A DNA stretch of 64,000 bases. It comes from Gammaproteobacteria bacterium (GTDB taxonomy: Bacteria > Pseudomonadota > Gammaproteobacteria > Pseudomonadales > IMCC2047). The notes under the pieces were generated by a model, which was not told the origin of the DNA, did not search any database, and saw only the letters and a program-made list of their open reading frames with translations. Of this stretch, positions 12,944-43,156 are shown one piece after another. Both the position numbers and the translations under genes were made by a program. Each line of letters starts with the position of its first letter. The first letter of the stretch is position 1. The DNA is taken from NCBI GenBank assembly GCA_021773395.1, contig JAJFKB010000007.1, forward strand, positions 1-64,000, read 5' to 3'.

Positions 12944-14464
12944 CTAGTTTTCTTCATTTTGATCGGCAAACCAAGGCTCTCTCGCCTTCATGATCAGCTC
13001 ACCAGCACGCGTTTGGTCAATACCTTCGATATCCAGCAGCTCATCAACTGACTGCTCTGCCAGATCTTCCATCGTAACGATTCCCTTGCTCGCCAGAATA
13101 TAGGCAAGGTGTTTGTCCATGCCTTCCATTTCTAATAAATCCTGAGCCGGCTCTTTACCCTCTAACTCTTCTTCAGAAGCAATGGCTTGGGTCAACAATA
13201 CGTCTTTGGCTCTGGCTCTCAACTCATTAACAACTTCTTCCTCAAAGCCGTCAATTGCCATCATTTCCTCAATCGGGACATAGGCAATTTCTTCGAGTGA
13301 AGTAAAACCCTCTTCGACCAGCACCGCGGCAAAATCTTCATCCACATCAAGGCGTTCCATAAAACGCTCAATAATAGACCCCATCTCCTGCTCTTGCTTG
13401 GCTCCAGCATCCTCTTCGGTCATGACGTTTATTGTCCACCCGGTTAACTCACTGGCCAACCGAACATTTTGACCACTGCGTCCAATCGCTACCGCCAGAT
13501 TGTCCTCAGCCACCGCCACATCCATTGAATGCGCCTCTTCGTCCATGATAATGGATTCGATTTCTGCGGGCGCCAGTGCATTAATCACCAATTGCGCGGG
13601 ATTATCATCCCACAACACTATATCAATTCGCTCACCTGCCAGCTCATTGGAAACCGCTTGAACTCGGGATCCTCGCATACCTACACAGGCACCTACCGGA
13701 TCAATACGCCCATCGTTGGTTTTGACTGCTATTTTAGCCCTGACACCAGCATCACGTGCCGCAGACCTAATCTCCACAACCTGCTCGGAAACTTCCGGCA
13801 CCTCGATTTTGAATAGTTCTAGCAGCAACTCCGGAGCGGTTCGACTTACAATCAACTGTGGTCCACGCACCTCAGGATCTACCGTCAACAAAAGCGCGCG
13901 AATCCGATCATTCATACGAAAAATTTCTTTGGGTATCATCTGCTCGCGTGGCAACTGTGCTTCTGCGTTATTCCCCAGATCAACAATAATCTGATCGCGC
14001 CCAACTTTCTTTACTGTACCGTTAATCACCTGGCCAACTTGATCCCGGTATGCATCAACCACCTTGGCTCGCTCTGCATCCCGAACCTTTTGTACTATAA
14101 CCTGCTTGGCCGTTTGTGCGGCGATACGCCCGAATTCGATATTTTCTATCTCTTCTTCCCAGACGCCGCCGACCTGCATTGAAGAATCTTTCTCATGGGC
14201 CTGCTCGAGCGTCAAGTGCATCGAAGACATATACTCCAGCTCGTCATCCGGCTGACCCTCATCCCAGACCGTCCAACGTCTGAAGCTTCGATAATCGCCA
14301 GTTTCCCGATCAATCGCTACGCGTATATCAACCTGCTCTTCTTCACCATAACGCTTGCGTGTTGCAGTCGCCAAAGCCAGCTCAATAGCTTCAAAGATAA
14401 TCGACTCAGGTACACCCTTTTCGTTTGAAACGGCTTCTACTACTAATAGAACCTCTTTACTCAT
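12944..14464 (-). CDS. nusA: Transcription termination/antitermination protein NusA
   Basis: NusA binds RNA polymerase and nascent RNA, modulating pausing, termination and rRNA antitermination. The 506-residue protein has the N-terminal polymerase-binding domain, an S1 domain (about 135-200, [19 protein letters not shown]), two KH domains ([18 protein letters not shown] and [19 protein letters not shown]) and two C-terminal acidic helix-hairpin-helix repeats, typical of gammaproteobacterial NusA. It follows rimP and precedes infB. Confidence 0.97.
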
Positions 14465-30852: not shown

Positions 30853-31215
30853 TTAACCCAATACTCTAGAAACTATGTTTAATAGTTGATCTGGGTCAAA
30901 GGGTTTAACGATCCAACCAGTCGCACCGGCGGCTTTTCCCTTCGCTTTTTTCTCATCTCCCGATTCAGTAGTGAGCACCAAAACCGGGGTAAACTTGTAA
31001 TCCTCCAAACGCCTTAGCTCGGAAACGAGTGAAAGCCCGTCCATCTCTGGCATATTGACGTCAGTAATCACCAAATCAAACAACTGTTTTTTCGCGGCTT
31101 CTAAACCAGCGACTCCATTATCTGCTTCAACTGTTTTATAACCTGCCCTGTTTAAAGCAAACGAAAGCATGGATCTCATTGAAGGCGAGTCATCTACTGT
31201 AAGAATGGTCTGCAT
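30853..31215 (-). CDS. cheY: CheY-type response regulator (first gene of the operon)
   Basis: A single 120-residue receiver domain with acidic pair D8/D9, phosphoacceptor D52 (LVITDVNMPEMDG), TTESG threonine and the KPF lysine. The ALNRAGYKTVEADNG pattern is characteristic of the CheY that precedes cheA in this cluster type. It opens the 11-gene minus-strand chemotaxis operon. The promoter should lie in the 260 bases upstream, but I cannot identify it. Confidence 0.92.
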   Translation of the reverse strand: MQTILTVDDSPSMRSMLSFALNRAGYKTVEADNGVAGLEAAKKQLFDLVITDVNMPEMDGLSLVSELRRLEDYKFTPVLVLTTESGDEKKAKGKAAGATGWIVKPFDPDQLLNIVSRVLG

Positions 31216-31474
31216 TATTATGTCTCTGATTTATTACACACATTTAAGCCCCTGGGGACTTATCTATTCCGGTATTAATAAAGATTAGTACGGGATTATC
31301 GGAAATCAACTTTCTACCAGGCATATTCCCTTAAAAACGCGATTTATTGCAGTATCGTAGTAACGACCAACAATAAACTGCAGATTAATCCGTCAAACTA
31401 AGAACACAGGCGCAATCATCGAGAAAAGAAATAGCTAGGGTTATTAATACCCGAGTAACAAAGCAGACACATTT

Positions 31475-31640
31475 GGGAACCTCTGAATATCTCCTTGATC
31501 CCTCTGGCGTACAGAGCGTTTGTAGATCAAGACGGCTTTGCGCAGTAATGTCCAGACCTTGCAAACAAAGCCAACGCAGAGCTACGAATGCTCTGTAAGC
31601 CCCGGAGGGCGAGGCATTAAGGAGATATTCAGAGGTTCCC
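31475..31640. repeat. 166-bp near-palindromic element with 22-bp perfect inverted ends (MITE-like)
   Basis: The sequence at 31475-31496 is the exact reverse complement of 31619-31640 (ends GGGAACCTCTGAATA). Further in, about 20 bases on each side around CAGAGC/GCTCTG also pair, so the whole element could fold into one long hairpin. It has no coding capacity. No clear target-site duplication is visible. The same 14-base end (GGAACCTCTGAATA) recurs alone at 62675-62688, so this belongs to a dispersed family. It lies between the chemotaxis operon and the tRNA-fMet terminator. Confidence 0.75.
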
Positions 31641-31665
31641 TGGCAAAAAGCGGCTAAAAAAGTGC

Positions 31666-31705
31666 AATAAAAAAGGCCTACGCCGAAACGTAAGCCTTTT
31701 TTATT
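31666..31705 (-). terminator. Intrinsic terminator of tRNA-fMet
   Basis: A 14-bp stem, including one G-T pair, is built from AAAAAAGGCTTACG and CGTAGGCCTTTTTT on the minus strand. It starts 3 bases after the tRNA-fMet CCA end and finishes in a T-run. This is a textbook terminator and closes the tRNA transcript. Confidence 0.85.
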
Positions 31706-31707
31706 GT

Positions 31708-31784
<77 letters not shown>

Positions 31785-31946
31785 ACAATTACTTAGAAAC
31801 TGTCCAATCAGGCTCTGGTAAACCCTGTTTCTATCTATAGAGACAAACCAAATATATGGCTTGCCCGAAAAGGAGAGCGAATTATAGGGAGCTTGTACCA
31901 GTCGGTCAAGTGGAAGCTCTACTGATTTCTAATATTATCGAAAGAT

Positions 31947-31964
31947 TTGGTGCCGAAGGCGGGA
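31947..31964. repeat. Island attachment site, distal copy
   Basis: TTGGTGCCGAAGGCGGGA here is identical to the 3' end of the tRNA-Leu gene at 41924-41941, in the same orientation. Such a direct repeat of a tRNA 3' end is the product of tyrosine-recombinase integration and marks the island's far boundary. Confidence 0.9.
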
Positions 31965-32026
31965 TTTTAATTATCTGCCTATCTTACTATGCCCTAACGA
32001 AATTTCTCCGATTCAATTTTTAAGAC

Positions 32027-32047
32027 ATACCGGCAAATGTACCGACA
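32027..32047. repeat. Candidate integrase arm site, left
   Basis: This 21-bp sequence begins ATACCGGC and matches 17 of 21 positions of 41794-41814 at the other end of the island, in the same orientation, with two TACCG cores spaced equally. Paired sites near each att repeat are expected for integrase arm-binding; the role is inferred. Confidence 0.5.
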
Positions 32048-32153
32048 AAGCTCAAAGTGCTTTCTGGGAATTGAACCGGGGCGGGATTGGCAGGTTGAAA
32101 ATTCACATTTCGACTTTTTTCACTGTCTGGAATCGGCCATTAGCGGACGTTAA

Positions 32154-32189
32154 CTATTTCTGATCTTATTCAAATAGGGTCAGAAATAG
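32154..32189 (-). terminator. Hairpin at end of the TIR operon
   Basis: CTATTTCTGA (32154-32163) pairs perfectly with TCAGAAATAG (32180-32189). It overlaps the last codons and stop of the UDG-like gene, the final gene of the operon. Only a weak T-tract follows, so terminator activity is likely rather than certain. Confidence 0.5.
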
Positions 32190-32826
32190 CTGTATCAACG
32201 TCGTAAAGCGACTGAATCTGATCTAGAAAGATGTTCTGACCACCGTAACTCGGATGACGAACCTTAAATACCTTACAGCGATCCTCGAATTTTTTTGCTG
32301 CATTTTCTGCGTCATTTCCTATCGCAATTAACCTTTTTGGTCTGAGAAAACCAATGAGATTATCTAGCAACTCTTCTCCTGCTTTCCGCTCTCTGGAATT
32401 ATGAGCACGGTTGCTAAACGGAGAACCAGATTCAAACGGATGAAGAGGAAATACATTCCATAGAAAGACGGGAGAAGAAACTTGAGAAAGAATACTCCAG
32501 ATCACTGCTGCTGTTCGTTCTGGAACAGCATCTCCTTTTGTAAGTCGGTCAAAATCAAGCTGCCATCTACCAACATGGTGACAAAAATGAACATCATCTG
32601 TTAATGCTAATCCAGTTCGTCTGCCACCTCTATACCCCAAATCTCGACCTATCCAAATTGCATCGACTTCCACTTGGCTCGCGGCCTCTAGCATTTTCTT
32701 TAAGATCGCTCGTCGTTTCTTAGGGGCATCAAAATAATCATATATTTCACAACGCTCAGAATATGGATTAAATGCATTATCGAACTTTAGATTAGCCAGC
32801 TCTTTTACAAAGCCTTCAGCTTTCAT
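32170..32826 (-). CDS. Uracil-DNA-glycosylase-fold protein
   Basis: This 218-residue protein has the order of motifs of the UDG superfamily: a substrate loop WIGRDLGYRGGRRTG (about 58-72; the usual GExPG is altered), NVFPLHPF (about 124-131), a strand RLIAIGNDAE (about 165-174) and the C-terminal VRHPSYGG with His191. UDG-fold enzymes remove uracil or other altered bases; the specificity of this subgroup is unknown. It overlaps the MazG-like gene by 11 bases and is the last gene of the TIR operon, suggesting a role on modified or damaged bases in defence. Confidence 0.7.
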   Translation of the reverse strand: MKAEGFVKELANLKFDNAFNPYSERCEIYDYFDAPKKRRAILKKMLEAASQVEVDAIWIGRDLGYRGGRRTGLALTDDVHFCHHVGRWQLDFDRLTKGDAVPERTAAVIWSILSQVSSPVFLWNVFPLHPFESGSPFSNRAHNSRERKAGEELLDNLIGFLRPKRLIAIGNDAENAAKKFEDRCKVFKVRHPSYGGQNIFLDQIQSLYDVDTAISDPI

Positions 32827-33940
32827 TACTCTCTCCTATCGGTCGGTATTCGAGCGTTCTAAGGTCTCGATTTCCAACTACTATTCCGCCATTGTTTTTT
32901 TTCAATTCTCTAAATACTGCATAACCCTGGAGAATAGCATTTTCCCATAGCTTTAGAGGGCATCTTTCCACCTCATAGCCTTGAACAAATTTTTGAATTG
33001 TCTTTAGAACATCGAAGGATACGCCATCATGTCCCTCAAAATTATCCAGCCCTTGCGCATAGGAAAATAGCCATGCGGTTAAGCCTTCTTCAACAACTAT
33101 TGCACGCCCACCATCCTGATCTCTATCTGTCGTAGGATCACTTTTTCTTTTTTGCTTGATAAGTGCTCTTAAAGTGGGTGACCAGTGAAGAACTGCGGCG
33201 TGAGCCATATGAAAAACATCATGAAAACGATAACCATCAGGTTTGCTTATATTGTCAGTTAAAGGATCGCCGATAAAGACACCATTCCACTTAAGATAGC
33301 TCAATCCACTTTTTCTCTGAGTAATGTGAATTTCAAAATGTCTTGGTAGCTGTTCATCTTTTGGAAATGCTGCGTCAAAATCTTCAAGTTTTCTTAGATC
33401 AGGCTCAGAAAATCTACCAAGTGTCTTAATTAAATTATCTTCAACTACTTTGCGAAATTCTAGGCCAGTTAATCGAAGAGCAAAACCGTATAAGCAGGCG
33501 ACATTTAGTACCTCATTCTTTAGCAGACCTTCATTTTCTTTCGCCTTAAGCAGCTCAGTAACGGCACAGCCGAGATCAATTAAGGCGGCATCAAGCTCTT
33601 TTGAAACAGTTGATTTGGATTCCAAAGCGTTTGAAGTTTTTTTATCGCCTAGTTTATCATCAGCTAAGTCTCGAAAAATATCCTCTATATTGATATCTAA
33701 CCGACGGCACAAAGCCGACAAATACCAGAAAGCATCACCAAATTCTTCTTCGACGGCGATTCTATGGCCAGCATATGCCTTTTTTTCCCGATAGAACTTT
33801 TTCGAGGTAGCCATAATGCTGCCGACTTCCCCGTATAGCCCCATAAGGATCGGCGTGATTTCATCCTTCGAAAATCTATCAGTCTTTTCTATGGACAATT
33901 CGTACTGTCTAAGAAAAGAGATTCTGTTATCTTCGTCCAT
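32816..33940 (-). CDS. MazG-like nucleotide pyrophosphohydrolase fused to an unknown C-terminal domain
   Basis: Residues about 1-110 of this 374-residue protein resemble the all-alpha MazG NTP pyrophosphohydrolase fold: MGLYGEVGSI with Glu38, then EEEFGDAFWYLSAL with the ExxD metal pair (Glu66/Asp69). The first ExxE pair reads ExxS, so one metal ligand is missing. Residues about 190-374 form a second domain with RFHDVFHMAHAAVL and other His/Asp clusters that I cannot assign. MazG enzymes hydrolyse canonical or non-canonical NTPs to NMPs. It lies 61 bases after the TIR-SLOG gene. Confidence 0.65.
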   Translation of the reverse strand: MDEDNRISFLRQYELSIEKTDRFSKDEITPILMGLYGEVGSIMATSKKFYREKKAYAGHRIAVEEEFGDAFWYLSALCRRLDINIEDIFRDLADDKLGDKKTSNALESKSTVSKELDAALIDLGCAVTELLKAKENEGLLKNEVLNVACLYGFALRLTGLEFRKVVEDNLIKTLGRFSEPDLRKLEDFDAAFPKDEQLPRHFEIHITQRKSGLSYLKWNGVFIGDPLTDNISKPDGYRFHDVFHMAHAAVLHWSPTLRALIKQKRKSDPTTDRDQDGGRAIVVEEGLTAWLFSYAQGLDNFEGHDGVSFDVLKTIQKFVQGYEVERCPLKLWENAILQGYAVFRELKKNNGGIVVGNRDLRTLEYRPIGESNES

Positions 33941-34001
33941 TTTTCTGCCTTTCTATCTGTCTCTTTAAGCCCTCACAAGGCATGAGGCTCTGAAACATGA
34001 T

Positions 34002-36023
34002 TCACGCTTTGCTGCCACTCAACTTATTTAACCCTTTAAGAATTAAATAAAGACATTCATCAATGAATGGGGAGTGCATTATTCTTATGTATTCGTCCTC
34101 AGATAATCCACAGAGGGCCGCAATGTCAGATACACTTTGCTTCTGCAGAAAATCAATCACTGCGCTGTAATCACATTCCTTCCCATGACTCTTTGCGATG
34201 GCTTGCAGCTCAGCATATCCAGAATTGTGAGAAATCTGCCAATCCTCAGTTAACACTTCTGGAACAGCTTTCTTCAGCAAAACATTACTGACACTTCCGA
34301 CTACGCCGCCAAATGCCCCTAGTAGAAATGTCGGCTTTTGGGAGCTTAAAGCCAAAACGATCTCTTCCAATACCCCCGGCATTTTTCCTTTGTAACCGGA
34401 AAGCTTTCCACCAGCACAAATTCTTGCCGTCGAAGGTTCTATGGACTTTTCCCGCATCTCTGTCAAACATCTCGACCAAACATATGAATTGTCCGGTGTG
34501 GTCGGTGGCAAAAAGACATCTCGCGCAAGCCCGGTCGAAACATCGCTAGCTATTTCGTGTTCCTCTGTTTTCATTACTTCGTTGTATTTAGCCCTCCACG
34601 CAACAATTTCGGGCTCTGATACATAGAGCGGCCATGCCAGATGATTTTCAACCTTGGGCAAGTCTCCTCCGATACGGTTTTTCAAAATGGAAGCTTCATC
34701 AAGAATAAACTCAGTAAATCCATCTGGGCGCAAATCACCGCCATAGATCAGGGTGGCCGAACGTGCCAATAAATGTCTGGCAATGTCCTGAGCCAATCGA
34801 ATTAAATGGTCGGGATGGACGTGATTACTTGAAAAGCCGTCTCCCTGAACATCAGAAACGGAAATACCAATTCGCTGCTGAAGCAAGTCATCATGTTCAG
34901 CCAAGTTCCACAGGGGCGTAAACGCTTCTATACCAAGATGATTGTGCCAGTCGGCCTCATTCGAATATATTGGTGGTTCGGGATAGCATATCTTTTTCTG
35001 TTCACTACTTTTTGCCTTTAATGCCTGCCTGATTTCCGGCGGTCGGGCCGACAATTCACAATCATTTTCGATCCATCCAATATCTTTATAAAATTTAAGG
35101 CAATGAATAGAATGGGTGAAACGAATAGTTTCAAGTATGGCGGCTGATAAAATGCGCAATATGTCCCGTTGACTTAGAGGGGTTTCCGACGAAACATGCA
35201 CACACGGAACGTTTGATGCTGCTGGGAAGATACGATCTTCGTAGTCATTGAGGCTGTTTACTATGACAATGGGTCGATTATACTGCTTTGCGCATAAAAT
35301 TTCTCGCTGGCACCAATATCGAGATGAATATGCATCACTTTCAATTGCGACAAGAGTTGACTTCTTAACACTTTTCTCGATTTCCTGATCAAACTGAAAG
35401 CCGGGGGATATTTCTGTAGAATCAAAAAAGCGATTGAGATTTGAATTGTCTAGAAACTTTTTGATTTCCTCAGAATGTAACCTTCCCGTATCACCAGCCT
35501 TTGCATGGCTTAAGAAAATAGTGATGGAGGACATCTTACCCGAATCGCTAGGATCAATTGATAAACATCCATAGCGATAGATTTCGTGTGCGAGCGAAAC
35601 AATTGCGTAAAAATCTGCGTTATCAGTCGGCCAATCATATACACGAATGCAATTTGCTCCTGCCAGAGAACCTTTATGTGCCAGCCCATTTTTGTCGATA
35701 GCAATAGGTACAATGGTAGTGGAAGGCGACGCAGGAAGCTCTTCCACGTATTTCCGCCAGTTCTCTCTGCCATTTGTATTTACGCTTGTGAATACAAAAA
35801 TTACATTCTTCTTCGCCAATGCATTGGGACTGTCATGAGGAATTTCATTGGCATTCAGAGAGCTGTAGAAAAATAGCGGTATATTCAGCCCTCTGGAAAA
35901 TGGCTTGTCTTTGTCTCTTGCAAAGCTCTTTCTTACGACGTCAATAATTGGATTAACCGCTTCGGAATCTGCAAAATTCCAGACAAAGTTAACAGCAAGT
36001 GGCGGTGCGTATTGAGTTTTCAT
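34002..36023 (-). CDS. TIR-SLOG protein: TIR-like domain, canonical TIR domain, C-terminal SLOG domain
   Basis: The protein has 673 residues. Residues about 10-150 form a TIR-like domain (NFVWNF, VIFVFTS, TIVPIAID, AHEIYRYG) with no clear catalytic Glu. Residues about 165-300 are a canonical TIR (ITIFLSHAKAGD, RFFDSTEISPGFQF, SRYWCQREILCAKQ) with the catalytic glutamate at 241. Residues about 385-600 are Rossmannoid, SLOG-type (GISVSD, ATLIYGGDLRPDGFTEF, AGGKLSGYKGKMPG, FLLGAFGG). SLOG domains bind nucleotide-derived ligands; in Thoeris ThsA a SLOG domain senses the TIR-made signal. I infer an NADase effector switched by such a signal. Its ATG overlaps the stop of the preceding TIR gene. Confidence 0.75.
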   Translation of the reverse strand: MKTQYAPPLAVNFVWNFADSEAVNPIIDVVRKSFARDKDKPFSRGLNIPLFFYSSLNANEIPHDSPNALAKKNVIFVFTSVNTNGRENWRKYVEELPASPSTTIVPIAIDKNGLAHKGSLAGANCIRVYDWPTDNADFYAIVSLAHEIYRYGCLSIDPSDSGKMSSITIFLSHAKAGDTGRLHSEEIKKFLDNSNLNRFFDSTEISPGFQFDQEIEKSVKKSTLVAIESDAYSSRYWCQREILCAKQYNRPIVIVNSLNDYEDRIFPAASNVPCVHVSSETPLSQRDILRILSAAILETIRFTHSIHCLKFYKDIGWIENDCELSARPPEIRQALKAKSSEQKKICYPEPPIYSNEADWHNHLGIEAFTPLWNLAEHDDLLQQRIGISVSDVQGDGFSSNHVHPDHLIRLAQDIARHLLARSATLIYGGDLRPDGFTEFILDEASILKNRIGGDLPKVENHLAWPLYVSEPEIVAWRAKYNEVMKTEEHEIASDVSTGLARDVFLPPTTPDNSYVWSRCLTEMREKSIEPSTARICAGGKLSGYKGKMPGVLEEIVLALSSQKPTFLLGAFGGVVGSVSNVLLKKAVPEVLTEDWQISHNSGYAELQAIAKSHGKECDYSAVIDFLQKQSVSDIAALCGLSEDEYIRIMHSPFIDECLYLILKGLNKLSGSKA

Positions 36024-36568
36024 CAGTGCGTAACTTCACAAATTTTGCATTTCGCGTTGTTTTTCATCATGGGCAATGAATTGTCAATCAGCTTTGCACG
36101 CGTAGTACGCGCCTGATAGGCTTCTTCAATCCAATCCCACAATTGCTGCTTTGTCGAAGGATAAGACCAATATCTCGCATAGCAATTCTCATGGCCTTTT
36201 GTCCAGTTTGCACTAAATCGTTCCGGCAACCATGCCGAATTGTTTCGGCTTGGTAGCACGATTGCCATCAAACCATTTGGCAATAGGCTTCCCTGTTGTA
36301 ACGAGCTTTTAATTTCCCAATCAACGTATCTTCTGCTATGGGTGCACGACCCAAGAAGAACAATAGTTACAGTGCTATCTCCAAGATATTTTTCTCGGAT
36401 ACGTTGCATTACGTAATCTGTGTTGGTGCTATCAAAAAATTCATCGTTGTCATTCGCACCAAGAACTTTAGGAATGAATACGTCACGAAAAGTATCAATG
36501 AATGTATCCACCTCATCTCTATCAGCCTTGAAGTGTGATATAAAAACTTTCCTTTTTTCAAAGCTCAT
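36023..36568 (-). CDS. ThsB-like TIR-domain protein (second)
   Basis: This 181-residue protein resembles the ThsB/MTH538 TIR-like group: KVFISHFKADRDEVDTF at the start, NDEFFDSTNTDYVMQRIREKY, TVTIVLLGSCTHSRRYVDWEIKSSL with the expected catalytic Glu85, then a short C-terminal extension ending in Cys-rich KCKICEVTH. ThsB proteins sense phage and make cyclic-ADP-ribose-type signals from NAD. Its stop codon overlaps the start of the TIR-SLOG gene (ATGA), so the two are co-translated. Confidence 0.75.
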   Translation of the reverse strand: MSFEKRKVFISHFKADRDEVDTFIDTFRDVFIPKVLGANDNDEFFDSTNTDYVMQRIREKYLGDSTVTIVLLGSCTHSRRYVDWEIKSSLQQGSLLPNGLMAIVLPSRNNSAWLPERFSANWTKGHENCYARYWSYPSTKQQLWDWIEEAYQARTTRAKLIDNSLPMMKNNAKCKICEVTH

Positions 36569-36579
36569 TGAACGCCCCT

Positions 36580-37245
36580 TTATGATATTTTATTTGTGAC
36601 TTGATCCACTCGCTGATGAGACTCCATAAACTGACATGGGTCAGAAATAATACAGTTTAACTCGCTTTTGTAGCTTCTATATGTAGATTCAATTAATTCC
36701 TTTCCAGCATTGGAAGTGGCTAGATCGATCTTCTTATAGCCTGGTCCAGAAAAGTAGTTAACAGAATCCAAATCAACCGTAACTGCTTGGTCACCAAAAT
36801 AGAAAAAAAAATTCGAAACCAATACCTGGTCTGATTCTCCAGTATCTCTGTCTAAATTAAAAAGATTTGCACTACCATCCGAATTACTATGATGTGAATC
36901 TTCCTGAATCCAATTTCCGTCCCCATTCTTGTGGTATATGTTGTCACCCAGCATCATCACGTTACTTCCGTTGCGACACGGCTTTTTCAATGAAAAACGA
37001 GCGTCTTCCCAATAATCTTGAAAGGTAAGTTTTTCCGTTACTTTCATTAGTAGAATGCATTTTCTGTGAGCAGAACCGAGGTTTTTTCCACCCACACCAA
37101 GAATCCAATCACCAATCATTGCGGATTTCCTGATTCCAGGCTTGCACGTGGCCAGAGTACAAATACCGTGAAATGGATTTGGAGCAAAGCCATAATCCCT
37201 GGCAATCACATATATGAATAAGTGAGAATTTGGCCTTATTAGCAT
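36580..37245 (-). CDS. Nmad2-type putative nucleotide-modification protein
   Basis: The 221-residue protein begins with LFIYVIARDYGFAPNPFHGICTLATCKPGIR, then IGDWILGVGGK and KCILLMKVTEKLTFQDYW, then a loop with NVMMLGDNIYH and NFFFYFG. This pattern matches my knowledge of Nmad2 (nucleotide modification associated domain 2), a family found beside DNA-modification and conflict genes; its reaction is not established. It overlaps the first TIR gene by 7 bases and precedes the second by 11, so it is embedded in the TIR operon. Confidence 0.65.
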   Translation of the reverse strand: MLIRPNSHLFIYVIARDYGFAPNPFHGICTLATCKPGIRKSAMIGDWILGVGGKNLGSAHRKCILLMKVTEKLTFQDYWEDARFSLKKPCRNGSNVMMLGDNIYHKNGDGNWIQEDSHHSNSDGSANLFNLDRDTGESDQVLVSNFFFYFGDQAVTVDLDSVNYFSGPGYKKIDLATSNAGKELIESTYRSYKSELNCIISDPCQFMESHQRVDQVTNKIS

Positions 37246-37727
37246 GTAATGTTGCGTCCTTCTACCTTTGGTGATGGGGTTCCGTCCGGATTCTGGAACT
37301 GACTTTTTCCTTCAAGTGCATCAATTACAGAATCTGATCTCCAACCAATAATTGACGTTGCATGCTTCTTTAAGCTGTCCGGTATTTCGACTTGATCTTT
37401 TAGACCGTTCTCATAGACCCCAATTATCGGTTTACCAAGCCGATGGGCGGTTTCAATCTCCCAGTTTACCCAATCCCTCTGATGAGTCTCCTTGCCAATC
37501 ACGACGATAACCTGACTGGCCCAACGCATTTTCATCCGTAGGAGACGTTTAATTGTATTGTCACTCACTTGTTTATTGTCTATACGGCTTTGGTTTTCAG
37601 GCTTGACGCGGATAGAGCTGTTTCTCAATTGATAACCCTTACCAGAAAGCATATTGGTTAGACCATCAACACTCGCATCATCCTTATGGTGATGACTTAC
37701 AAAAACATTTTTAATTTTATCCGTCAT
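37239..37727 (-). CDS. ThsB-like TIR-domain protein (first, operon leader)
   Basis: The 162-residue protein starts MTDKIKNVFVSHHHKDDASV and continues to QVIVVIGKETHQRDWVNWEIETAHRLGKPIIGVY, the TIR-like ThsB/MTH538 pattern with the catalytic Glu at 90. I chose the ATG at 37727 because a strong GGAGGT lies 6 bases upstream; an in-frame start ten codons earlier has none. It is the first gene of the operon. Two ThsB-like proteins in one operon recalls Thoeris loci with several ThsB sensors, which recognise different phages. Confidence 0.75.
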   Translation of the reverse strand: MTDKIKNVFVSHHHKDDASVDGLTNMLSGKGYQLRNSSIRVKPENQSRIDNKQVSDNTIKRLLRMKMRWASQVIVVIGKETHQRDWVNWEIETAHRLGKPIIGVYENGLKDQVEIPDSLKKHATSIIGWRSDSVIDALEGKSQFQNPDGTPSPKVEGRNITC

Positions 37728-37774
37728 GCGGTTACCTCCAGCTTTCTGCGTCAACAACGTGTTTCGTGTGAGTA

Positions 37775-37803
37775 AGTATCATCATTGTTAGTTAATCACA
37801 CAA
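37775..37803 (-). promoter_or_regulatory. Candidate promoter of the TIR operon
   Basis: On the minus strand TTGTGT (37798-37803) and GATACT (37775-37780) are 17 bases apart, about 50 bases upstream of the first TIR start. The match to the sigma-70 consensus is partial, three to four of six at each box, so this is only a candidate. Confidence 0.25.
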
Positions 37804-38209
37804 TGTCCGCTTTGGGTCGAAAACGGCCCTTGTAGCCAAAAAAGCAACGCTTCATCTTTTTATAAAGGTACTGGAAAGGGAGGGGGTTCGTGGAACAATC
37901 ACCAGGTTACCTCCCTATACACCTCGATAATTAACGGCCTATAGTACAAGATCATTTATGCATTGAGCAACGTCATATGAGTTAGCGGCGTTATGCAATA
38001 TTTGAATTTTCGAGATGTTGAAAAAAGCTGTCCACAAGTCCACAACAATTACCTCATTGCGAAGCGAGCCCCATTGCTCGCGCAGCCCGAACGGTTATGT
38101 TTAAGTCACGTGGTTGCGGGCCCTGTGGTCAGGTTTTCGCATGACCCTGATCGCTTTTGCCGCATTAAATCCGTTCGATTTCGGTAAAATTTGCGAAATT
38201 CCCGATCTA

Positions 38210-38252
38210 CGCCATCGTCACTGCCGAGCGCAGCGGGGTAGTGACGATGGCG
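38210..38252. repeat. 13-bp perfect stem-loop
   Basis: CGCCATCGTCACT (38210-38222) pairs exactly with AGTGACGATGGCG (38240-38252) around a 17-base GC-rich loop whose first bases can extend the stem by about three pairs. No T-run follows on either strand, so a simple terminator is unlikely. Confidence 0.7.
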
Positions 38253-38413
38253 CCCGTGCCAGAAACCACGACAGGCGCCGCTCGAATTTCCTAGTTACGG
38301 GTAAGTTTTCTGTTCTTATACTGGCACTATCTATCGAATCTATCCGCACGCCACAGCGGAAATGTGGCAAGGGGCTCCCGCCCTTGCTCCGGCGAAACGG
38401 GAACAGCGTCACA

Positions 38414-38451
38414 GGGCATCATTGACGCATCAGCCGCAAGGCTGATTGCCC
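38414..38451. repeat. Two-tier hairpin with GCAA tetraloop
   Basis: ATCAGCC and GGCTGAT form a 7-bp stem capped by GCAA (38429-38446). GGGCA (38414-38418) and TGCCC (38447-38451) add an outer stem. The GNRA loop and nested stems favour a folded RNA. Confidence 0.6.
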
Positions 38452-38582
38452 ATCTTTCTCATCACCGTTTTAACGGTTTCTTTAACTTAGCGGGCCGATG
38501 GTTCCGCATTATTTAACAGGAGGTGATTGTCTCACCATAATAGTGGACTCTTTAATGAGTCAAATTGGTTTGCATCCTACCG

Positions 38583-38820
38583 GCTCCAGCAGGAGCACGA
38601 GGATGTCGCCTGAAATCAGGCATATTCAGATTGCAACGGGAGTCGTGTCCCGAGGCCATTCCGCGAAAGCGGGTCAGTAGGCTACGAGCCTGCGGTTGGT
38701 CATAAACACTCACCAGAAAGGAACCACACGAGAAGATCTGAAACACCAATTGAAACCACTGTGTAATCGTATCCACAGCGACAGTTACAACAGTCAAGCC
38801 AACCGGCTGTCGCTTCTGTA
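38583..38820. ncRNA. Candidate structured RNA segment upstream of alpA
   Basis: Within about 240 bases there are at least five short perfect stems: GCTCC-AGCA-GGAGC (38583-38596), CCTGA-AA-TCAGG (38609-38620), CCGC-GAAA-GCGG (38661-38672), AGGCT-ACG-AGCCT (38679-38691) and AGCGACAG with CTGTCGCT (38777-38814). Strand and ends are unknown; the alpA direction is a guess. Open frames on both strands through this part have no plausible ribosome sites. The call rests on stem density alone. Confidence 0.3.
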
Positions 38821-39112
38821 TCCGTTTATTGATCCCGTAGGGAACGGACAATAAAAGGATAGGTTTACTTTTGTATATTTTGTTGGGTAGCAAAAGTCAT
38901 TCGAAACCGCTTCGGTCTGTGTAGGCTTTTGCCGTTGTTTTCTCCTTGTTATTGCTTAGCATAGGGACGCTTGCAGCCTATTGAAAAGCTATTGCGTTAG
39001 CTCCGGCGGTGTTAAAAAACGGACTCAAAATGCTCATTTATTACACTGCCTACCCGGAGCGGCGCTCATCACGCTTTTCAACAGACTGCTTAACAAAAAC
39101 AAGGAGACGTAT

Positions 39113-39295
39113 ATGAGTTTTAGAATCTTAAGGTTAAAAGAGGTCCAGCAGATGACGGGATTATCCCGCTCAACTATTTATGCCGAAATCGCCAAGGGCA
39201 AATTTCCCAAGCAGGTGAAACTCACCGGTGCTCGCTCTGTCGGTTGGCATGAAAGTGTCATTGTGCAGTGGGTTGAATCCCGGCAGCATGAATAA
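39113..39295 (+). CDS. AlpA-family regulator
   Basis: A 60-residue winged-helix/MerR-like DNA-binding protein with LRLKEVQQMTGLSRSTIYAEIAKGKFPKQVKL and GWHESVIVQWVESR, the standard AlpA pattern. AlpA proteins of P4-like islands activate excision or integrase expression. I chose ATG 39113 because AAGGAG lies 6 bases upstream; longer in-frame starts lack a site. It is the only plus-strand gene of the island. Confidence 0.9.
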   Translation: MSFRILRLKEVQQMTGLSRSTIYAEIAKGKFPKQVKLTGARSVGWHESVIVQWVESRQHE

Positions 39296-39304
39296 CGCCT
39301 GCCG

Positions 39305-39616
39305 CTATTCGTTTTCTGCATCGAGTTCCTCTTCCTTAAGCAGCTCGCTGCCCCGGCGCACGGTCAGTACTTTGATCATTTGCACGCGCTCATCGATACC
39401 GTATATCACCCGGTAAGCGCCATGCATCACTTCCCTGACCCGATCTATATTTAGCTCGGGAACCTTGCGGCCACTGCGTGGATGTTGGGGTAACCTGCCG
39501 ACCGTTTCAAACAGCGCCTCGATCCAATCTTCCGCCGCAGCCGGTTTATCTAGAGCTATGTACGTCGCAATTTCCCTCACCCGCTCCAAAGCAAGTGGCG
39601 ACCATTCCAATTTCAC
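39305..39616 (-). CDS. ParE/RelE-family toxin
   Basis: A 103-residue toxin of the RelE/ParE superfamily: LEWSPLALERVREIATYIALDKP at the start, PRSGRKVPEL, and REVMHGAYRVIYGIDERVQMIKVLTVRRG. ParE members poison gyrase and RelE members cleave mRNA; which applies here cannot be told. The start is a GTG overlapping the antitoxin stop codon (GTGA), the usual coupling. It probably stabilises the island. Confidence 0.9.
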   Translation of the reverse strand: MKLEWSPLALERVREIATYIALDKPAAAEDWIEALFETVGRLPQHPRSGRKVPELNIDRVREVMHGAYRVIYGIDERVQMIKVLTVRRGSELLKEEELDAENE

Positions 39617-39894
39617 TTACGCAAATCCTTTAATAGCATCTCTTTTGCCTGATCGTGGGGGATTCCCTCTCCGGCTTCAAGCTGGGCTTCTGCTCGGTAT
39701 ATATCTTCAAGCAGATCCAGGCGTTCCTGCATATCCTGATACTCGTGAACACCAACCAACACTGCAACGCCACGGCCGCGCTGTGTTAGCACCATAGGAC
39801 GGCCGGTATCATTAATTTGCTTAATAAAGGAGGCAATCCCCGCTCGGAAGTCTGACAATGGCCGAATATCTTCATTGACTCGTAATCTCGGCAT
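39613..39894 (-). CDS. Phd/YefM-family antitoxin
   Basis: This 93-residue antitoxin begins MPRLRVNEDIRPLSDFRAGI and continues RPMVLTQRGRGVAVLVGVHEY, the Phd/YefM DNA-binding fold, with a C-terminal acidic toxin-binding tail. ATG 39894 is preceded by GGAG; a longer frame to 40020 would run through the operator, so I rejected it. A perfect 24-bp palindrome 15 bases upstream is the likely autoregulatory operator. Confidence 0.9.
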   Translation of the reverse strand: MPRLRVNEDIRPLSDFRAGIASFIKQINDTGRPMVLTQRGRGVAVLVGVHEYQDMQERLDLLEDIYRAEAQLEAGEGIPHDQAKEMLLKDLRK

Positions 39895-39909
39895 ACATAT
39901 CTCCAAGGC

Positions 39910-39933
39910 ACAATTAAAAGTACTTTTAATTGT
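39910..39933. promoter_or_regulatory. 24-bp perfect palindrome, likely antitoxin operator
   Basis: The sequence is symmetric about its centre, with half-site ACAATTAAAAGT. It lies just upstream of the antitoxin ribosome site. Phd/YefM antitoxins bind palindromes overlapping their own promoter, so autorepression is the expected role. Confidence 0.75.
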
Positions 39934-40103
39934 ACGCTTGGTGTCTATATATCGCAAGAATCGCTGAAACCTATCACGGGATGTGATGCCAATTTTTAAC
40001 TTGTTCACTCTTATCTCCATCCAATAGAGCCAAAGGATATTATCCCAGCGATACCTCTGGATTGTCCCTGGCAGGTTTATGGCTATCTCAAACTCCTTGT
40101 TGG

Positions 40104-40478
40104 TTAACCACCCAAGAACATTGCTGGCCGAATGCCAAAGCGTTCCGCCAGTTTCTCGATTGAGTGACGTTGCAGAATACGTTTACCATTAAGCACTTCT
40201 GAGACCATCGTCTTATCACCGATTTCCGGCAGGTCAGAATCGGTTAAACCATATTGCCGCATCAGGGTGCGCAATAACGCAATCTCTGTCGGAATGGCAT
40301 TAGCTTCTTCGACAAAAGCCGTTAGTTCTTCATCCTGAGCTTCATAGGCTTCAACAAGCGTTGCTAAGGCATCCAGCTCATCACCTTCCGGCGTATCCAG
40401 TTTTGCATCCATCAGTTCCAGGATACGGGCTAAAGCGGCTTCATAATCCTTTTCAGTTTTAATGGCTTTGATTTCCAT
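40104..40478 (-). CDS. HigA-like antitoxin without adjacent toxin
   Basis: The 124-residue protein has the helical acidic N-terminal part common to COG5499 antitoxins (TPEGDELDALATLVEAYE) and a C-terminal HTH (KTMVSEVLNGKRILQRHSIEKLAERFGI). In HigBA loci a toxin of about 100 residues precedes it; here the integrase gene ends 16 bases upstream and no toxin frame is present. It may be an orphan antitoxin or a regulator of integrase. Confidence 0.8.
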   Translation of the reverse strand: MEIKAIKTEKDYEAALARILELMDAKLDTPEGDELDALATLVEAYEAQDEELTAFVEEANAIPTEIALLRTLMRQYGLTDSDLPEIGDKTMVSEVLNGKRILQRHSIEKLAERFGIRPAMFLGG

Positions 40479-40494
40479 ATTGTTACCCTAAAAT

Positions 40495-41763
40495 TCAGTT
40501 TTCTATTTCTCGGCGTTCCGATTCCTCTTCACCGTTCCCCATATTTGAAAACAACGGCACGACCTTATTGGTCACCCGCATCTCATCCAGATAATCGGCC
40601 CACCATTGCATCATTTTCCGGCGCTCCTCCAAATAGTGAGCATGGTGCGTATAAGCAGCCCTGACCGTATTGCGCTCTGCGTGGGCCAACTGACGCTCGA
40701 TAGCATCGGGATTAAAGCCAGTCTCGTTTAGTATGGAGGCAGCGGTCGCCCTAAAACCGTGGGGAACCGCTTTGCTTTTGTCGGCATGTTCACCATCATA
40801 ACCAAGCTTGAAGATAGCCCGGCGCATGGTGTTATCGGACATCGGTTTGGTGCGAGCACGTTCGGAGGGAAACACCAGCTCATATCTGCCGGTCATTCCT
40901 TTCAATAGTTCCAGCAGCTCTAAAGCCTGCCGGGAAAGGGGCACCAGGTGTTCGCTTTTCATCTTCATGCGTGCTGCCGGTATGCGCCATACTTTGTTGT
41001 CATAATCGAACTCTGTCCAATGGGCTCCGCGCAGCTCTCCGGAACGAACAAAGGTTAACAGCAATAGTTTGATAGCACGCTGGGTTAGCAGTCGGCCACG
41101 GTCGCTATAGGTTTCCAGCTCTCGCAGAAACCGGGGCATCTCTTCTCTGGGCAGGGAAGCACGATGTTGGACTTTTCGTTGTTTGACAATTCCATCCAGG
41201 TCACCGGCGGGATTGGTGATTGCCATACCTCTTTGTACGGCGAAGCGGTAGGTTGCATTGATCGCTTGTTTGACCCGGTTAGCGACATCCAGCGCACCAC
41301 GCGCTTCAATCTTGCGAATTGTTGCAATGACCTGCATCGGGGTGATTTCATTAATGGGTAGATGACCAATTTCCGCAAACGCGTTATCTTCAAGGCGCTT
41401 TAGCACTCTGGTGGCATGATCTTTGCTCCAGGTTTCCCGGCAGTGTTCCCACCATTGGCGCGCGGCAGCCTCGAAGTTATTGGTTAACCTGGATAGCCTT
41501 TCTTCTTGACGAACCGTGCTGGGATCTTGATCGTTACTCAATAGGATTTTAGCGAGGCGTAACTTTTCGCGGGCATCTTTCAGGCTGACTAGGGGATATA
41601 CACCGAGGGCGAGGGTTTTGCGTTTACCAAGATAGCGGTAATCCATGCGCCAATATTTGCCGCCGTTGGTCTTGACCAACAAATACATGCCGCCGCCATC
41701 GGATAATTTGTAGTCTATATTGCGGGGTTTTGCTTCCCTAACGCGTGTGTCCACCAAAGCCAT
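40495..41763 (-). CDS. int: P4-type tyrosine-recombinase integrase
   Basis: The 422-residue integrase has the N-terminal arm-binding domain of P4-like enzymes (REAKPRNIDYKLSDGGGMYLLV, RYLGKRKTLALGVYPLVSL), a core-binding domain and the catalytic domain. Catalytic residues are visible: Arg in VRSGELRGAHW, His-x-x-Arg in PHGFRATAAS, His in QLAHAE and the Tyr nucleophile in AAYTHHAHYLEER. The gene lies 160 bases from tRNA-Leu, pointing away from it, as normal for tRNA-targeting islands. It catalyses recombination between the 18-bp repeats. Confidence 0.95.
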   Translation of the reverse strand: MALVDTRVREAKPRNIDYKLSDGGGMYLLVKTNGGKYWRMDYRYLGKRKTLALGVYPLVSLKDAREKLRLAKILLSNDQDPSTVRQEERLSRLTNNFEAAARQWWEHCRETWSKDHATRVLKRLEDNAFAEIGHLPINEITPMQVIATIRKIEARGALDVANRVKQAINATYRFAVQRGMAITNPAGDLDGIVKQRKVQHRASLPREEMPRFLRELETYSDRGRLLTQRAIKLLLLTFVRSGELRGAHWTEFDYDNKVWRIPAARMKMKSEHLVPLSRQALELLELLKGMTGRYELVFPSERARTKPMSDNTMRRAIFKLGYDGEHADKSKAVPHGFRATAASILNETGFNPDAIERQLAHAERNTVRAAYTHHAHYLEERRKMMQWWADYLDEMRVTNKVVPLFSNMGNGEEESERREIEN

Positions 41764-41793
41764 GTGACGGTATCTTCCCTAATTGAACCGTAG

Positions 41794-41814
41794 ATACCGG
41801 CTAAAATACCGTCA
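41794..41814. repeat. Candidate integrase arm site, right
   Basis: This 21-bp sequence beginning ATACCGGC is a near copy (17 of 21) of 32027-32047 at the other island end. A nearby inverted CGGTATC lies at 41768-41774, overlapping the int leader, so binding here could also control int. Confidence 0.5.
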
Positions 41815-41894
41815 TTTCTTTAGGCTGTCAACACATCTTGCTGGAAGGAAACAAATGAAAATTTCGATAACTTATTGTTTTTGCTTTATTTTTA

Positions 41895-41921
41895 AACTTT
41901 CTCGGAAGTTATCGGAAAGTT
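41895..41921 (-). terminator. Possible terminator after tRNA-Leu
   Basis: AACTTTC (41895-41901) pairs with GAAAGTT (41915-41921) and on the minus strand is followed by a T-containing A/T run. It lies inside the island immediately after the tRNA CCA end, so the island may have supplied a new tRNA terminator. Confidence 0.4.
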
Positions 41922-41923
41922 AA

Positions 41924-41941
41924 TTGGTGCCGAAGGCGGGA
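41924..41941. repeat. Island attachment site in tRNA-Leu
   Basis: TTGGTGCCGAAGGCGGGA covers the last 17 bases of the tRNA-Leu gene including CCA, plus one flanking base. It is identical to 31947-31964, and the tRNA gene remains intact after integration. Confidence 0.9.
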
Positions 41942-42010
41942 CTTGAACCCGCACGACCATAGGCCACTACCCCCTCAAGATAGCGTGTCTACCAATTCCA
42001 CCACTCCGGC
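41925..42010 (-). tRNA. tRNA-Leu (GAG)
   Basis: An 86-nt type II tRNA with a long variable arm and encoded CCA. The anticodon loop TTGAGGG gives GAG. D-loop GTGGAATTGGTAGACAC and T-loop GGTTCAAGTCC are canonical. It follows secG by 9 bases, exactly as leuU follows secG in E. coli, and is the integration target of the island. Confidence 0.96.
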
Positions 42011-42019
42011 ATAATTTTG

Positions 42020-42403
42020 CTAATCAACTACAGGCAGATCTGTGCCCCCAGAATCGATTGCGGGCAGGTCCTGTTCCAATTCTTCCACTGGCAATTCAGG
42101 TTCCGCGGCATTTTGCTGTTGTTGCTCAATGAGCGCTGAGTCAGGAATGCCTATGTTGGATTCCTCCCCTGCCTTTTGTTTTGCATACACAGCTAACGCG
42201 AAACTGGTAATAAAAAACAGCGTCGCCAATACTGCAGTGGTGCGCGTTAGAAAATTACCCGAGCCTTGACTGCCGAATACGGTTTGAGAAGCTCCCGCTC
42301 CAAAAGAAGCACCAGCGTCCGCGCCCTTACCCTGCTGCAATAGCACCAGACCGACAACGGCAAGAGCTAACAGCACATGTACAATTAATATAATATTTTC
42401 CAT
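42020..42403 (-). CDS. secG: Protein-export membrane protein SecG
   Basis: SecG is an auxiliary subunit of the SecYEG translocon. The 127-residue protein has two membrane helices (IILIVHVLLALAVVGLVLLQ and AVLATLFFITSFALAVYA) separated by the conserved cytoplasmic loop QGKGADAGASFGAGASQTVFGSQGSGNFL. An acidic Gln/Glu-rich C-terminal tail extends it slightly. It starts 3 bases after tpiA. Confidence 0.95.
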   Translation of the reverse strand: MENIILIVHVLLALAVVGLVLLQQGKGADAGASFGAGASQTVFGSQGSGNFLTRTTAVLATLFFITSFALAVYAKQKAGEESNIGIPDSALIEQQQQNAAEPELPVEELEQDLPAIDSGGTDLPVVD

Positions 42404-42406
42404 TTT

Positions 42407-43156
42407 CTAACCTGCTGCGTTACATATCGCAGTGAATGCCTGTTCATCGAGCGAGGCTCCACCAATCAGACCGCCGTCAATATCCGGCATTGCAAATAAT
42501 TCAGCGGCATTGTCTGCATTGACACTGCCGCCATAAAGCAACGTTAAATCCGCTGCTATCTTCTCACTCAGCGACGCAATTTGCTGTCTTATATGATAAT
42601 GGACCGCCTGCGCCTGCTCTGGTGTTGCTGTATTACCCGTACCTATTGCCCAAACCGGCTCATAGGCCACCACAATATCGGAAAATGCCTCTACCCCAAC
42701 AGCTTCAATCGCCGCGCTAAGCTGGCGACTTACCACCTGCTCAGTTTTACCCGACGCCCGTTCTGCGTCGCTTTCTCCCACGCAAAGTACCGGAGTTAGC
42801 CGTTCCTTAAGAGCGGCAAGCGTTTTCTGTGCAACGACTGCATCTGATTCACCATAGAGACTGCGCCGCTCGGAATGTCCCAAAAGAACATAGTCACATC
42901 CGAATTCACGCAGCATCTGCGCCGATATTTCGCCCGTATAGGCACCTGTCACATGCTCACTTGCATTTTGCGCCCCCAGACTAATTGGGGAACCCTTTAG
43001 CAACGCCTGCGCCTGATCTAAATATACAGCCGGCGGACAAATAACCACCTGCACGCTTAACTCGCTCAAACGGGTTTGCAAACCGGCGAGCAATTGATCA
43101 ACCATGCTTCGATGGCCATTCATCTTCCAATTTGCTATTACCAGTTTACGCCGCAT
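42407..43156 (-). CDS. tpiA: Triose-phosphate isomerase
   Basis: TpiA interconverts dihydroxyacetone phosphate and glyceraldehyde 3-phosphate. The barrel shows the catalytic Lys in IANWKMNG, the electrophilic His in LLGHSERR, the Glu in VAYEPVWAIGTG and the phosphate loop LLYGGSVN. I chose ATG 43156 (249 residues) over a GTG four codons earlier because homologues begin at this point. Confidence 0.96.
   Translation of the reverse strand: MRRKLVIANWKMNGHRSMVDQLLAGLQTRLSELSVQVVICPPAVYLDQAQALLKGSPISLGAQNASEHVTGAYTGEISAQMLREFGCDYVLLGHSERRSLYGESDAVVAQKTLAALKERLTPVLCVGESDAERASGKTEQVVSRQLSAAIEAVGVEAFSDIVVAYEPVWAIGTGNTATPEQAQAVHYHIRQQIASLSEKIAADLTLLYGGSVNADNAAELFAMPDIDGGLIGGASLDEQAFTAICNAAG

Follow-up and report, generated by a model that had tools for sequence, protein, structure and literature searches.

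A TIR, Nmad2 and nucleotide-enzyme operon on a gammaproteobacterial genomic island as a candidate anti-phage system of exchangeable modules

In the 64,000-nucleotide stretch of gammaproteobacterial DNA analysed here (positions 1 to 64,000 of contig JAJFKB010000007.1, assembly GCA_021773395.1; hereafter the window), six adjacent genes encode a ThsB-type TIR protein (TIR1), a protein of the Nmad2 family, a second ThsB-type TIR protein (TIR2), a TIR-SLOG effector, a MazG_C protein and a member of the uracil-DNA glycosylase (UDG) superfamily. These six genes are shared between genomes as one block under purifying selection, and the operon represents one arrangement within a widespread family that mixes and matches its parts. 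We put at just under one half (about 0.48) the probability that it works, as a whole mechanism, as an anti-phage and probably abortive-infection operon in which Thoeris-like logic is combined with a nucleobase front end.

In the proposed course of events, the substrate of the dUTPase-like MazG_C protein and the UDG would be an unusual nucleotide of the deoxyuridine type, both free and in DNA, that marks infection. Nmad2, as a reader of predicted YTH/ASCH fold, would bind that base or nucleotide, whether it is still in DNA or has been released as a product, and would switch on its partner TIR1. TIR1, together with TIR2, would convert NAD+ into an ADP-ribose (ADPR)-type signal, to be bound by the SLOG domain of the TIR-SLOG effector, the TIR domain of which would destroy NAD+ and so stop the infected cell. 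The anti-phage role of the window copy, the ligand, the trigger, the identity of the signal and the order of events are what we infer; the gene set, its conservation, modularity and co-variation, the conserved catalytic positions and the predicted folds are the observed layer described below.

Conservation of the six genes as one block

The initial annotation had described six minus-strand genes of these domain families in this order, which holds: the six open reading frames (ORFs), running from 37727 to 32170, are all intact and all on the minus strand, and every product has a Pfam match. The same six genes occur in the same order in two metagenome-assembled genomes, titled uncultured Gammaproteobacteria (L019) and Micavibrio (L020). 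By BLASTN against the whole window each gives a single unbroken match, over 37822-32195 at 89% identity for L019 and over 37720-32204 at 87% for L020. The flanks of both loci have no BLASTN match to the window at E 1e-5, so that homology ends at the operon ends, and their neighbouring genes are not the same, with a Fic gene in L019 and a type I restriction subunit in L020. Between the window and these two loci the ratio of non-synonymous to synonymous substitution rates (dN/dS) is 0.04-0.16 for each of the six genes. The synonymous rate dS of the UDG gene is saturated (about 1.67, compared with 0.18-0.66 in the other five genes), which suggests that the 3' end of the operon has been exchanged by recombination.

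TIR1, Nmad2, TIR-SLOG and MazG_C are found in the window order in four further loci. Two of these (L022 and L024) have a UDG and no TIR2 label, and two (L021 and L023) have TIR2 outside the array and no UDG label; in L021 a DUF1643 gene (13877-14341) follows MazG_C, at the place where the window has its UDG.

Relatives of the operon and exchange of its modules

With an Nmad2 profile we searched one-per-species genomes, which gave 554 confirmed relatives out of 567 candidate stretches, and the best 80 loci were annotated with hidden Markov models (HMMs) built from the window proteins and their neighbours; as the best 80 of 554, these loci yield counts that describe the close subfamily. A ThsB-type TIR adjoins Nmad2 in 78/80 loci (in one, L090, it carries the TIR2 label), and the two exceptions are L041, where a short TIR1 ORF stops about 200 bp short of Nmad2, and L075, at a contig end. 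Around this pair the other parts vary. Within 7 kb, 76 of the 80 loci have a nucleotide-enzyme gene, as HMUDK with a thymidylate-synthase (TS)-like gene in 25, MazG_C with UDG in 24, MazG_C with HMUDK in 17 and a partial module in 10; among the four loci without such a label, L052, L057 and L064 are contigs of 4-5 kb and L084 is a real miss. The TS homologues keep the catalytic Cys in 30/30 and the PYN-motif Asn in 29/30, and the HMUDK profile had one match in the PDB (E 0.21), judged to be chance.

An effector-type label is present within 7 kb in 71 of the 80 loci and absent in 9, the labels being TIR/SLOG (43), patatin (14), SIR2 of ThsA type (6), CapV-type (5) and a TIR effector without SLOG label (3). 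The local labels 'patatin' and 'CapV' had drifted and were re-split by protein length, some members being checked with Pfam. An unnamed protein with transmembrane helices lies near Nmad2 in 18/80 loci and is the sole effector-type label in 15. A protein of about 230 residues also recurs near TIR1-Nmad2 (17 proteins of 150-290 residues, many with a hydrophobic N-terminal stretch; for example L048 8703-9509, L078 2188-2916, L036 14350-14982, L086, L091 and L093). The N-terminus of the large patatin proteins contains the same helical part. None of the four proteins of this 230-residue group that were tested has a Pfam match, and the group is possibly another effector class. MazG_C, UDG and TIR/SLOG are present together in 12 of the 80 loci, with TIR2 as well in 7.

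Co-occurrence was also found outside this set. Among 72,556 plasmid records, 11 of the 16 with an Nmad2 match also match MazG_C, which occurs in only 34 records, so that 11 are observed against an expectation of 16 x 34 / 72,556 = 0.0075; Nmad2 is further present in 5 of the 11 plasmid records with a TIR-SLOG match. In the Mesorhizobium record NZ_AP023248, TIR2 and a split TIR/SLOG come after TIR1-Nmad2-MazG_C-UDG. The recurrence of the genes in other genomes, proposed as a check in the initial annotation, was thus obtained both as the full order in L019 and L020 and as the Nmad2-MazG_C pairing on plasmids. Chance adjacency of the six genes is excluded by their co-occurrence on plasmids and in genomes and by a shared block of 5.6 kb between unrelated flanks. 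Phage-borne cargo was rejected as well, since none of 50,697 phage records has an Nmad2 match at E 1e-3; the MazG region had only short matches there (16-21% of the query, in five Roseobacter phages), and in IMG/VR Nmad2 relatives were found in 10 loci.

Of 398 genomes sampled evenly across the phylum, few were positive (4-7 per family, a count that includes the window's genome if it has the family): Nmad2 was found in 6 genomes, MazG_C in 4, SLOG cluster2 in 7 and HMUDK in 4. MazG_C adjoins UDG or HMUDK in 4/4, and Nmad2 adjoins TIR1 in only 2/6 (the window and G456); the four Nmad2 genes that do not adjoin TIR1 score 107-135 bits, compared with 260 in G456 and 296 in Escherichia coli loci, and two of these four are neighbours of Nmad3. 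Divergent Nmad2 genes without a TIR are paired with Nmad3 in two loci (L117 7729-9242 and L118 6343-7778), which suggests other base-modification-associated systems. Among the seven genomes with SLOG cluster2 (all but G564 inspected), the domain is encoded beside Nmad2 in the window and G456, TIR/SLOG genes are present in G285, G246 and G222 where TIR2 and Nmad2 labels are both absent, and in G039 a patatin-SLOG gene lies beside TIR2-type genes.

Co-variation was measured as the correlation of pairwise identities across loci, with 1000 shuffles; shared ancestry was not removed, and therefore the ranking of the correlations matters more than their values. The highest values were those of HMUDK-TS (r 0.95, n=27), MazG_C-UDG (0.84, n=33) and TIR1-Nmad2 (0.83, n=93), followed by Nmad2 with UDG (0.72, n=35), HMUDK (0.66, n=51) and MazG_C (0.58, n=57), and then by the effector with TIR2 (0.46, n=29), Nmad2 (0.41, n=56) and TIR1 (0.38, n=56). 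TIR1-TIR2 came last (0.22, n=34) and was the one pair for which a shuffle reached the same height (1/1000; 0/1000 for all others). Because of this ranking the operon reads as three modules, namely TIR1-Nmad2, TIR2 with TIR-SLOG, and MazG_C-UDG. One indivisible six-gene system is excluded because the modules recombine. The initial reading, a multi-gene unit that joins TIR signalling to nucleotide and base enzymes, stands in its conserved unit, its domain calls and this combination of activities. Its two ThsB-like sensors do not look like equals: TIR1 goes with Nmad2, and TIR2 tracks the effector and hardly TIR1.

A rival explanation is an arrangement of independent cassettes, in which a base-excision and dNTP-sanitising defence (a Brig1-like UDG with MazG_C) and a Thoeris-like TIR2 with TIR-SLOG are transferred together and do not feed each other. 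The modules also occur apart, TIR1 and TIR2 co-vary weakly, and the UDG-superfamily glycosylase Brig1 can block T4 alone, as described in PMC11078745. We nevertheless regard this explanation as unlikely, given that TIR2 and TIR-SLOG are placed between the other two modules in a tightly packed array shared as one block, and that a nucleotide-enzyme gene is so regularly found near TIR1-Nmad2.

The MazG_C-UDG module

The MazG_C domain is matched in Pfam at 3e-79, and a MazG domain in the same protein stays below the Pfam cut-off (14.2 vs 22 bits). Its predicted model matches all-alpha dUTPases and its profile iMazG and DCTPP1. In an alignment of 40 rows E38, E66 and D69 are invariant, and position 41 is S in the window and E in 3/40; the metal-ligand motif of MazG and all-alpha NTP pyrophosphatases is, as we take it, ExxE...ExxD. 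The UDG reaches PF03167 at 4e-6 (27.3 bits, cut-off 24.3), it matches the TM0511 UDG at 0.0018, and D62, N124 and H191 are invariant across 24 sequences, D, N and H being presumably the catalytic and recognition residues of the superfamily. In PADLOC both proteins had weak matches (0.0064 for MazG_C and 0.037 for UDG). Two more UDG-family matches lie outside the operon in the window's genome.

In four plasmid loci (L111 6965-11970, L112, L113 and L114) MazG_C-UDG is accompanied by a convergent uncharacterised gene, a C1 papain-like peptidase and an HTH/XRE regulator, with an ImmA/IrrE protease in three of the four and a dCTP deaminase adjoining the set in L114; this set is a candidate second defence system with the same nucleotide module.

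The nature of the nucleotide modules bears on the main rival explanation, namely that the operon guards a self-made nucleotide: the module would hold a deoxyuridine derivative or DNA mark at a set level, this self signal would be altered when a phage takes over the dNTP pool or the mark is lost, and Nmad2-TIR1 would fire in response to that change and not to the arrival of a phage base. The alternative modules do hold writers (TS-like, dNMP kinase and HMUDK), so that there the unusual nucleotide would be a product of the host; indirect phage detection with decoy cyclic nucleotides also has a precedent in Panoptes, as described in PMC12657218. The window module, in contrast, is of the eraser type only, with no writer in the operon, and HMUDK_hel (5-hmdU kinase) has no match anywhere in the window's genome. 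Guarding fits the writer-type modules better than this eraser-type one, and for the window we consider it, too, rather improbable.

TIR2 and the TIR-SLOG effector

TIR1 and TIR2 match ThsB_TIR (PF08937) at 5e-22 and 2e-16, respectively, and are the only two matches to this family in the window's genome. The Glu at the catalytic position is kept in 52/53 TIR2 relatives. In the effector, Pfam recognises TIR_2 (PF13676, 9e-10) and the LD_cluster2 SLOG domain (PF18163, 3e-58), and the Glu is kept in 76/76 effector TIRs (the window's copy being counted twice, as L002); against the PDB the effector sequence found nothing at E 0.1. A further, TIR-like domain had been proposed ahead of these two. The N-terminal 158 residues align with the effector's own TIR domain with an HHalign probability of 60% (E 8.5e-5) and with ThsB TIRs with only 2-4%, and because of these values a second, degenerate TIR at the N terminus is plausible but not proven.

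The ADPR-type nature of the signal is proposed because of the ThsB-family membership and of the arrangement in L025, where TIR1-Nmad2 is directly followed by a SIR2-STALD (ThsA-type) protein and no other TIR is labelled. In the other SIR2 loci a further TIR gene is usually found beside the SIR2 gene, so that L025 is a single case. The SIR2-SLOG protein ThsA is activated by 2'cADPR and 3'cADPR, according to PMC11204291.

TIR1 and its partner Nmad2

TIR1 matches the PADLOC ThsB model PDLC00418 at 1.6e-65 over nearly its full length, and the Glu at the catalytic position is kept in 103/106 of its relatives. Nmad2 is matched in Pfam by PF18753 at 3e-62, and no PADLOC model matches it. Its predicted model matches YTH and ASCH domains with modest scores by Foldseek and by VIA-align, the latter being, for the Nmad2 and MazG_C folds, a re-examination of Foldseek's own matches and not a separate search. 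The predicted fold would accordingly be PUA/YTH/ASCH-like, that of modified-base readers and not of a modifying enzyme. Against solved structures the Nmad2 profile gave two matches to a viral envelope chain, at E about 0.035, that were judged to be chance, and against viral structures the model gave nothing at E <= 0.001. Invariant or nearly invariant residues are F20, N23, C34, K35, D101, N102, W112 and H119. The earlier suggestion that Nmad2, the MazG-like and the UDG-like protein make, destroy or recognise modified nucleotides is thereby narrowed, Nmad2 looking like a reader.

A role of Nmad2 and the nucleotide enzymes as effectors or signal chemists and not as sensors, in which they build the TIR product (a base-ADPR conjugate, for instance) or act on it, would suit the tight TIR1-Nmad2 pairing and the conserved Cys, Lys and Asp of Nmad2, but is very improbable in view of the reader-like predicted fold and of the MazG_C-UDG sets without TIR.

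A broader claim, which we put forward tentatively and consider somewhat doubtful, is that the family represents a new class of immune circuit, in which YTH-fold Nmad2 would read an unusual deoxyuridine base or nucleotide that interchangeable deoxyuridine-chemistry modules produce or expose, and would license a TIR to make a second messenger from NAD+ for swappable effectors, so that the reading of a base modification triggers TIR immunity. If true, it would join TIR/NAD+ immunity with DNA base modification, say concretely what it is that some TIR systems sense, and explain the TS-like, dUTPase-like and glycosylase genes beside TIR genes. As the nucleotide and effector parts swap around a constant TIR1-Nmad2 pair, the question of the trigger is testable with few constructs.

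Operon layout and genomic island

The features are listed in Table 1. From TIR1 to UDG the junctions are a 7 bp overlap, an 11 bp gap, a 1 bp overlap, a 61 bp gap and an 11 bp overlap. The strong ribosome site noted at the first gene is a Shine-Dalgarno sequence, GGAGG, 7 nt upstream of the TIR1 ATG. The hairpin reported after the last gene was confirmed, with -20.3 kcal/mol and z -3.6, and lies across the UDG end; a terminator scan gave no terminator-like site on the operon strand. A promoter scan stayed at shuffle level (13 found vs 13.2 expected), an Rfam scan of 31000-43000 gave two tRNAs and nothing else, and none of the six proteins reaches the cut-off of any NCBIfam model. The operon sits on a 10.0-kb island integrated at a tRNA-Leu, as had been proposed, between 24-nt repeats (92%) and with an integrase; the other island genes (38981-40478) encode an AlpA-type regulator, a ParE/Phd toxin-antitoxin pair and a weakly HTH-like protein.

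Table 1. Features of the operon and its island (positions in the 64,000-nt window; host genome 3.8 Mb)
Feature	Position	Strand	Basis
TIR1, ThsB-type TIR, putative signal synthase, Nmad2 partner	37239-37727	-	PF08937, PADLOC ThsB
Nmad2, predicted PUA/YTH/ASCH-like modified-base reader	36580-37245	-	PF18753
TIR2, second ThsB-type TIR, associated with TIR-SLOG effector	36023-36568	-	PF08937
TIR-SLOG effector: possible degenerate TIR 1-158, TIR ~160-320, SLOG cluster2 380-644	34002-36023	-	PF13676, PF18163
MazG_C protein, all-alpha dUTPase/MazG-like nucleotide pyrophosphatase with MazG_C domain	32816-33940	-	Pfam MazG_C
UDG-superfamily glycosylase	32170-32826	-	PF03167, invariant D62/N124/H191
Hairpin spanning the 3' end of UDG (last gene)	32130-32205	-	folding energy
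Distal attachment repeat of island	31947-31970	.	24-nt direct repeat of tRNA-Leu 3' end, 92%
Proximal attachment repeat, tRNA-Leu 3' end	41924-41947	.	24-nt repeat
tRNA-Leu(GAG)	41925-42010		
Tyrosine integrase of island	40495-41763	-	PF00589 4e-28, PF13356 4e-23

Comparison with known systems

The initial annotation knew of no named system with the complete set, and none turned up here: neither the six-gene set nor the TIR1-Nmad2 pair was found described in the literature searched, most subscription journals lying outside it. But relatives in E. coli share TIR1-Nmad2 with another nucleotide module, domains of which are reported as validated. In the main text and legends of PMC13092281 (DefensePredictor), 94 E. 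coli units were tested in MG1655 and 42 validated, 5-hydroxymethyluracil kinase and thymidylate synthase being among the newly validated defence domains and dNMPk and NMAD being listed as well in the legend of Fig. 3C. The systems predicted there and left untested include aGPT-Pplase, MazG, MazG-C, dUTPase and a nucleotide-modification-associated domain, to which the legend of Fig. 6F adds UDG, and Burroughs 2015 is cited for the earlier prediction of several of these domains in defence. The locus L026 matches 16 of 5426 E. coli genomes by megablast, 12 of them over at least 80% of the locus. In both E. coli loci that were inspected, TS, a kinase-like gene, HMUDK, TIR1 and Nmad2 stand in one row, with TIR1 adjacent to Nmad2; TIR2 is nearby, as are TIR/SLOG genes, the latter being split and on the opposite strand. 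In L109 and L110 this set lies near MobC-type mobilisation genes, in L110 also with a tRNA-Asn nearby.

This E. coli locus would correspond to a system validated in PMC13092281, the four domains forming one system. The legend there gives TS, dNMPk, 5hmdUk and NMAD for the whole panel and ties them to no single named system, which slightly lowers our confidence in the mechanism proposed for the window operon; neither TIR nor SLOG is mentioned in the main text of that paper. The NMAD domain is common to the E. coli set and the window operon, whereas the nucleotide module is TS/dNMP kinase/HMUDK in the former and MazG_C/UDG in the latter.

The hallmark of Thoeris of any type, a ThsB-type TIR, is present in two genes of the window. 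With Thoeris type I the operon shares, besides these, a putative SLOG receptor fused to a predicted NAD-consuming domain; the type I effector is, however, the SIR2-STALD protein ThsA, where the window has TIR-SLOG cluster2 and, in addition, Nmad2, MazG_C and UDG. Pfam gave no SIR2 or STALD match in the six genes, to which the SIR2 search was confined, and no macro-domain match (type II) in the same genes, and the type III model of NCBIfam (ThcB4) scored 20.6 bits against a cut-off of 220. With Brig1, which has a ThsA-like gene in its vicinity, the operon shares the UDG superfamily and, probably, the defence setting; at the position presumed to read the base, Brig1 uses Glu147 (PMC11078745) and the window UDG family, which is paired with MazG_C, keeps an Asn. 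To the PUA-like readers of the YTH, ASCH and EVE families Nmad2 may be alike in its predicted fold, with no convincing sequence match to a solved structure. The operon is not wholly new, as TIR/Thoeris-like signalling is known and its family has lately begun to be tested, and there is a real chance that its nucleobase-reading front end is new.

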